Origin: Akkermansia muciniphila
GTDB lineage: Bacteria; Verrucomicrobiota; Verrucomicrobiia; Verrucomicrobiales; Akkermansiaceae
DNA: 64,000 nt
NCBI GenBank assembly: GCA_945901795.1
Contig: CAMDLP010000006.1
Coordinates: 1 to 64,000, forward strand
Reading direction: 5' to 3'
Below the pieces are notes generated by a model that was not told where the DNA came from, did no database searches, and worked only from the letters and a program-made list of their open reading frames with translations. Below are positions 5,982 to 6,681 of this stretch, in pieces. The translations under genes were made by a program, and so were the position numbers. Each line of letters begins with the position of its first letter. Position 1 is the stretch's first letter.

Positions 5982-6681
5982 GATTTGGCGGGATGAAATT
6001 TCGGGCAGACGCTTAGGGCATCGGCTAGCCGCGGTCAAAAGCAATTGCTTCGCCAATTCGTGGGAGAAATCCTGAAGAGGAAATCATGTGGGTGCCGGAG
6101 CTTGTGAATAACTTGGGCAAAGTGGCGGAATCCGGTTTATCCAGCGAATTTGCGGGCCGGATCGGGCGAGGGCTCCTTGATTTTCTGATGAGTGCCGTGC
6201 ACGCGATCCGCTTGGAGTTATTACCAATGATCCGGAGGCTTTAAACGACTGATGGATCTGACGCCTGCTGAAAATGAAAGGGATATGGAGTTGTGAATCG
6301 CTTGCTCGCACTTGTTGCCAAGTTATTAACAATGGGCTTTGCGCCTTTCGGACGAGAAATCCGAAAGATCTGCGGCAGTCCGCCGTCGGCTCTGCGCCTC
6401 CAACAGTCCTTAAGAAATCCAATGTGAATAACTTGGGGAGATCTTCCTGTTCCACGCCGCGGACCACCTTGAAAGGGGGATCGGAGTCATCCGCATCGCG
6501 ATTTGTGGAACAATCTGGCGGAGGTCGGTTGGTGATTGCGGGCCCTCGCCGCGATGACTGGCCGCATCGATGGATATCGGCGGATTCTTTGCACTTTACG
6601 CTTGGGCGCGATCCCTTCAGATAAGGAGTCCGCCGCATGAAAATCGTGAGGCGGATCTTTCAATTCATTCAAACATCCATC
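5982..6681. other. 700-bp non-coding divergent region with DnaA-box-like repeats
   Basis: No convincing gene is seen between the divergent icd and the DUF6941-like gene. The region is less GC-rich than its surroundings. The word tgtgaataacttggg occurs at 6103-6117 and again at 6423-6437. Its first nine bases are the reverse complement of TTATTCACA, a near-canonical DnaA box. Related words are ccaagttattaac at 6318-6330 (inverted), gagttattacc at 6215-6225, tgtgaatcg at 6292-6300, and tgtggaaca at 6504-6512. These could be origin-type DnaA sites or operators of another regulator. No dnaA or dnaN lies nearby. Confidence 0.4.

Follow-up and report, generated by a model that had tools for sequence, protein, structure and literature searches.

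A single-copy array of DnaA-box-like sites with conserved geometry in Verrucomicrobiota, a candidate DnaA control locus outside oriC

A divergent intergenic spacer of 700 bp carries an element in which three near-consensus DnaA boxes and a weak fourth box-like site stand roughly 80–145 bp apart in a fixed order and orientation. The element, one copy per genome, is shared by many members of a single genus and extends to some related genera; its boxes are kept while the remaining spacer and the neighbouring genes change. We believe, with a probability of roughly 0.55 judged from sequence comparison, that the element is a DnaA-binding control locus located outside oriC.

The window analysed is bases 1–64,000 of contig C6 (92,276 bp) in assembly G000, which comprises 3.28 Mb in 120 contigs and is 95.4% complete. 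The spacer occupies positions 5982–6681, from the start of icd to the start of the gene for a DUF6941 protein. The left neighbour icd (3741–5981, minus strand) encodes a monomeric isocitrate dehydrogenase (Pfam PF03971, 1306 bits), and the right neighbour (6682–7113, plus strand) matches DUF6941 (Pfam PF22091, E 3e-42). A DUF6941 match is present in 67 of the 73 genomes of the genus, and the nearest named DUF6941 loci are labelled Akkermansiaceae, Verrucomicrobia and Luteolibacter, so that the source is probably an Akkermansiaceae relative. The G+C content of the spacer is 0.531 vs 0.587–0.618 in the overlapping or adjoining 2-kb windows. A coding spacer was rejected, as its ORFs (184 and 116 aa) belong to no Pfam family, and a search for known RNA families gave no Rfam match at E ≤ 1. 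The original prediction of a DnaA-box-like array in an AT-raised spacer of about 700 bp between divergent genes, with neither dnaA nor dnaN close by, agrees with this layout; both of the latter genes sit on a different contig of G000, C2.

The 15-mer TGTGAATAACTTGGG (opposite strand CCCAAGTTATTCACA) is found at 6103–6117 and 6423–6437, and the two exact copies flank an inverted one (6317–6331) that has two mismatches. These repeats, which formed the core of the original prediction, are real, and the 15-mer is no common word of the genome, as its two exact copies in the assembly are both in the spacer. Outer box 1, TTATTCACA, covers 6103–6111 on the minus strand and is extended as CCCAAGTTATTCACA to 6117. 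Outer box 2 is again TTATTCACA (6423–6431, minus strand), extended to 6437, and the inverted middle box TTATTAACA lies at 6323–6331 on the plus strand. The weak fourth site TTATTACCA (6218–6226, plus strand) has the orientation of the middle box and precedes it by 105 bp. Of the further variants that had been pointed out, the one at 6215 is this fourth site and marks the place of a weak box in many relatives, and those at 6292 and 6504 are common to the closest relatives only.

At up to two mismatches the 15-mer has seven matches in G000, three of them in the spacer, and the backward control has two. By a looser count within the window the array is only modestly unusual, because three matches at up to three mismatches compare with a shuffled mean of 0.57 and 3 of 100 shuffles reach three. 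The word TTATNCACA occurs 17 times in G000 (backward control 11), and its sole pair within 1 kb is formed by these two outer boxes. An interspersed repeat was rejected: G000 holds no second copy of the spacer, the two other matches being 19 and 27 bp long with E 0.5–1.

The same arrangement was collected in 30 elements drawn from 167 scanned sequences, many of which were not expected to carry one; repeated elements and matches whose box mismatches exceeded two in total were left out. An outer box is followed 199–244 bp on by the inverted middle box and, 79–112 bp further, by the second outer box, and the element spans about 330 bp. The 60 outer boxes read TTATTCACA in 49 cases, TTGTTCACA in seven, TTATCCACA in two and otherwise in two, and the 30 middle boxes read TTATTCACA in 13, TTGTTCACA in eight, TTGTCCACA in one and otherwise in eight, a variety that is limited because the scan admitted no box with more than one mismatch, a C at position 5 being free. 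Changes in the outer boxes fall mostly at positions 3 and 5, and DnaA boxes tolerate the changes seen in TTGTTCACA and TTATCCACA. The weak fourth site is box-like at no fewer than 7 of 9 positions in 19 of the 30 elements (63%) vs 19% of shuffled segments, and at no fewer than 8 of 9 in 33% vs 2%. For the opposite strand of the same region the figures are 40% vs 24% and 17% vs 3%, respectively. The site stands 98–107 bp ahead of the middle box in 17 of the 19 elements having one.

Spacings were tested in all 30 elements and in 17 of 22 cluster representatives, namely those with one box mismatch or none; for L083 and L075 one of two possible boxes was chosen by the script. The 17 representatives, which are non-independent lineages, show a phase at 10.5 bp (Rayleigh p 0.005 and 0.0002). 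The summed distance has no significant phase (p 0.11), and the longer spacing fits best to a period of 11.5. These values suggest that the spacings change by roughly one helical turn at a time. Among the 30 elements, 5 contain a perfect match to the IHF consensus (shuffles 2.5%) and 17 contain one that is off by no more than a single base (shuffles 29%), but the positions are scattered; no IHF-like site keeps a fixed place across the elements, and the best one in G000 has two mismatches. Orientation with respect to replication was considered and rejected: on the G-rich strand the outer boxes show TGTGAATAA in seven of nine genomes (G000, G171, G173, G118, G120, G133 and G100, not G083 and G087), too few to count.

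A DNA search with the spacer against 260 family genomes returned long relatives in G169 (83%), G102 (77%) and G103 (two pieces, 75% and 84%). It also gave short patches, some at the boxes and many at chance level, and 84 of the 260 genomes had a match at E ≤ 0.1. We aligned 15 icd–DUF6941 spacers, that of G000 included, taking only loci where both genes were found; L020, L026 and L031 (DUF6941 only), L004–L006 (the own locus repeated) and loci lacking both genes were excluded. The mean major-base fraction is 0.956 for the outer-box columns vs 0.555 for the columns between the outer boxes. Outer box 1 is present in all 15 spacers (13 exact, two with one base changed), outer box 2 is an exact TTATTCACA in all 15, and a box with at most one mismatch lies at or near the place of the middle box in 13.

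We also scanned 80 named DUF6941 loci, over either the icd–DUF6941 spacer or 900 bp upstream of DUF6941. Icd adjoins in 14 of them, and all 14 have boxes. Without icd, a perfect box lies upstream in 12 loci, one locus has one-mismatch boxes only (a list confined to boxes after AAGTT), and 53 loci have none, four of which offered fewer than 900 bp to scan. The cultured Luteolibacter and Haloferula among these loci show no perfect box in the region upstream of DUF6941.

A strict pattern of the architecture, whose limits exclude the three-box elements of G117, G118 and G087, matches 31 of the 260 family genomes with one match each, and its backward control matches none of the 260. The matches fall in the own genus g1 (23 of 73 genomes), g6 (5 of 18), g8 (1 of 14), g9 (1 of 1) and g12 (1 of 12). 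Across the order, a looser pattern matches 38 of 386 genomes, all within the family (0 of 159 outside it), with no control match. TTATNCACA has 17, 15, 14 and 19 sites in G000 and the single-contig genus genomes G100, G117 and G133, respectively, and the element is the only place in each where two perfect sites lie within 1 kb. Genera g6 and g8 contain additional perfect-box clusters at other places in the genome. Arrays of ten (G217:C4:304805-305354, L247) and five (G206:C2:120521-121198, L246) box-like sites, all on one strand, are found in genus g12 and may represent a variant of the same locus.

A 12-mer search in 15 genomes, in which the matches for G173, G206 and G217 are those among the matches listed, placed the triple, whole or in part, far from the DUF6941 gene in six genomes of the genus (G100 at 315 kb, G117 at 923 kb, G118:C5 at 617 kb, G120:C1 at 840 kb, G133 at 2,982 kb and G146 at 92 kb). 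In other genera it lies at 388 kb in G173:C4 (among the matches listed), at 5,074 kb in G083 and at 101 kb in G087:C12. The nearest genes by Pfam encode Hsp90/HtpG in G117 and G118, fructose-bisphosphatase in G133, signal peptidase II in G173 and an isocitrate/isopropylmalate dehydrogenase in G087.

The DnaA protein of G000 (L254:4470-5903) has the usual ATPase and DNA-binding domains, and its C-terminal DNA-binding domain is normal (PF08299, E 2.5e-29; chain 1j1v, E 1.4e-23). It reads GGRDHGTVIHA where chain 8btg reads GGRDHTTVIHA, the threonine of which we take to be one of the box-contacting residues. In the mechanism we propose, DnaA would bind the boxes on one helix face, the DNA between the boxes would loop or wrap, and the resulting complex would alter the amount of free active DnaA. 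Possible routes would be the holding of DnaA, the promotion of ATP hydrolysis as at datA, or the exchange of nucleotide as at DARS. Negative control of DnaA is weakly favoured over the positive sign, because G000 has one Bac_DnaA match only and hence no Hda-like inactivator as a second Bac_DnaA protein at the threshold used.

Some observations speak against DnaA control by this element. The AAG shared ahead of TTATTCACA in most boxes exceeds what a 9-mer needs and could reflect another protein. Among the 30 middle boxes, eight match neither the three usual forms nor TTGTCCACA, and the strict pattern misses 229 of the 260 family genomes, including all 76 of the large sister genus g2. If the element is not oriC, the oriC of the genus must lack a perfect TTATNCACA cluster, which is odd. 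A further proposal, about which we are rather doubtful, takes this up: in this genus the only perfect-box cluster would lie off the origin, the main assembly site of DnaA would be a spaced and perhaps helically phased controller, and oriC would do without a classical cluster. A controller rather than the origin would then carry the strong DnaA sites.

It is possible, but not likely, that the sites bind a different protein, such as a chromosome organisation or segregation factor, through a longer motif of roughly CCAAGTTATTCACAA. The frequency of AAG ahead of the box in the element would fit such a motif, and so would G133, where all three occurrences of the exact AAGTTATTCACA fall within the element, against a total of 19 TTATNCACA sites. 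However, isolated exact copies are found elsewhere (one in G100, two in G146 and two in G120), and some elements lose AAG and keep TTATTCACA (L100 CGACTTATTCACA, L112 CACCACTTATTCACA). The concentration of outer-box changes at positions 3 and 5 likewise argues against a different protein.

That the element is the oriC of the genus, with DnaA boxes, a moderately AT-rich stretch and a skew scrambled by rearrangements, is an unlikely rival. This reading was demoted after skew tests in relatives with the element, which show no origin-type switch. The element does have the DnaA-box cluster expected of oriC; no other site in G000 or the three single-contig genomes has at least two perfect TTATNCACA within 1 kb, and the element is non-coding, AT-raised, single copy and conserved. 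Moreover, the 10-kb dnaA regions of five relatives and G000 hold no box cluster (that of G100 begins at the contig end, 416 bases ahead of the dnaA match). The orientation of isolated boxes in G133 switches near the element, with 8 of 9 on minus before it and 6 of 7 on plus after it, but G100 and G117 show no such switch, and genera g6 and g8 carry more than one perfect-box cluster.

The skew tests covered six three-box elements in relatives with 40 to 200 kb a side; G000 itself has 6 kb left of the element. A minus-to-plus GC-skew switch is seen at none of the six (G173, G171, G083, G087, G118 and G120) and at neither of the two g12 arrays (G206 and G217), where the skew is positive on both sides. 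G173 is the strongest counter-case to an origin, with a constant skew of -0.150 +/- 0.006 on the left and -0.160 +/- 0.007 on the right over 200 kb each side. The corresponding values are +0.026 +/- 0.008 and +0.045 +/- 0.011 in G171 and +0.041 and +0.042 in G120. The skew goes from +0.074 to +0.008 in G083 and from -0.019 to -0.089 in G087, and in G118 a plus skew extends about 20 kb or more to either side before turning minus. Coarse samples beside the element give no switch in G100 (+0.075, +0.014) or G133 (-0.031, -0.080), and the skew change nearest to the element in G133 is plus-to-minus, in the terminus sense. All the above bear out the doubt about an origin that the original prediction itself had voiced. 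Within the window, the skew turns from plus to minus near 57–59 kb (about 57,000–64,000).

The true oriC of the genus was not located, the sampled skew of G100 and G133 being too weak and patchy to place their origins. Denser box clusters in G173:C3, in G083 at 4.61 Mb and in G087:C4 show no minus-to-plus switch either. We observed a single perfect TTATTCACA in the dnaA–dnaN gap of about 90 bp in G000 (G000:C2:42444-42452, L254:4444-4452). In G008, five box-like sites lie within 110 bp (G008:C3:456611-456718, L245), about 1.7 kb from mnmG/gidA (PF01134), presumably a classical oriC neighbour; this cluster is a possible oriC of genus g2. For another verrucomicrobium, Methylacidiphilum infernorum, GC skew placed the origin 250 nt upstream of dnaA (extract of PMC2474590).

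That the element serves its neighbours, icd and/or DUF6941, as an operator array is very improbable. The array does sit between two divergent genes, all 14 of the named DUF6941 loci with icd adjoining have boxes, and 12 more have a perfect box upstream of DUF6941 without icd. However, the left gene varies even beside DUF6941: apart from icd it encodes a LysR-type regulator (L079), a phosphoribosyl-AMP cyclohydrolase (PRA-CH/HisI; L082), an RNA methyltransferase (L088) or DNA polymerase III alpha (L100). No constant association with icd is found, and other clades have the element at a distance from both icd and DUF6941. Because the neighbouring genes differ between clades, the element is not simply an icd operator, and the original alternative of a regulator controlling icd is not supported for the array. 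An Iso_dh-family dehydrogenase gene adjoins the element in G087 (L243), and the monomeric isocitrate dehydrogenase of G000 (window 3741-5981) is unrelated to it; the dehydrogenase neighbours in both genomes are probably a coincidence.

Icd also has a conserved promoter-like sequence of its own on the minus strand, with TTGACC (6033–6038) and TAAGCG (6010–6015) 17 bp apart. Directly upstream of it lies the palindrome AGCAATTGCT (6040–6049), which is exact in 13 of the 15 aligned spacers. As an icd operator, the region 6010–6049 is a stronger candidate than the array of boxes. A structured RNA with the inverted boxes as arms is hardly credible: the outer and middle boxes are inverted repeats, but the middle box would form a non-standard pair with outer box 1 or 2 in 10 and 11 of the 30 elements, respectively, Rfam gave no match, and the stem was rejected as box changes are often uncompensated.

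Off-origin DnaA control loci are known from a few model bacteria. Among the listed open-access papers on DnaA boxes or oriC in Verrucomicrobia, Akkermansia and Luteolibacter, or on datA- or DARS-like loci, no title concerns such an element. If DnaA control by the element is true, it would be an independent case from Verrucomicrobiota, in single copy and with a defined geometry, that tests the generality of such loci in replication timing. Origin finders seeking DnaA-box clusters may then choose the wrong place in these genomes.

The DARS core is compact, whereas the boxes here are about 80–245 bp apart and no IHF site is at a fixed place. The element resembles DARS1 and DARS2 of E. coli in being non-coding, probably off oriC and built on a core of three DnaA boxes, as these are described in an extract of PMC4585315. 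Like E. coli datA, it is one non-coding locus that has several DnaA boxes and would lie away from oriC; datA is about 1 kb long with five boxes (extract of PMC5295017), whereas three strong sites and one weak site are predicted here and no fixed IHF site is seen. Bacillus subtilis and Streptomyces likewise have off-origin DnaA-box clusters able to restrain initiation (extracts of PMC4585315 and PMC5295017). In B. subtilis a strong effect was obtained only with all six clusters deleted, and their role was judged not significant in the extract of the latter source (PMC5295017); unlike these six, the element here occurs once per genome, with its geometry kept in several genera. Like oriC, it is a DnaA-box cluster in a non-coding AT-raised region, but it differs from oriC in that the relatives tested lack an origin-type skew switch there. 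Our best reading, by analogy, is that the element may be similar in kind to datA, DARS and the Bacillus clusters, with a geometry of its own.
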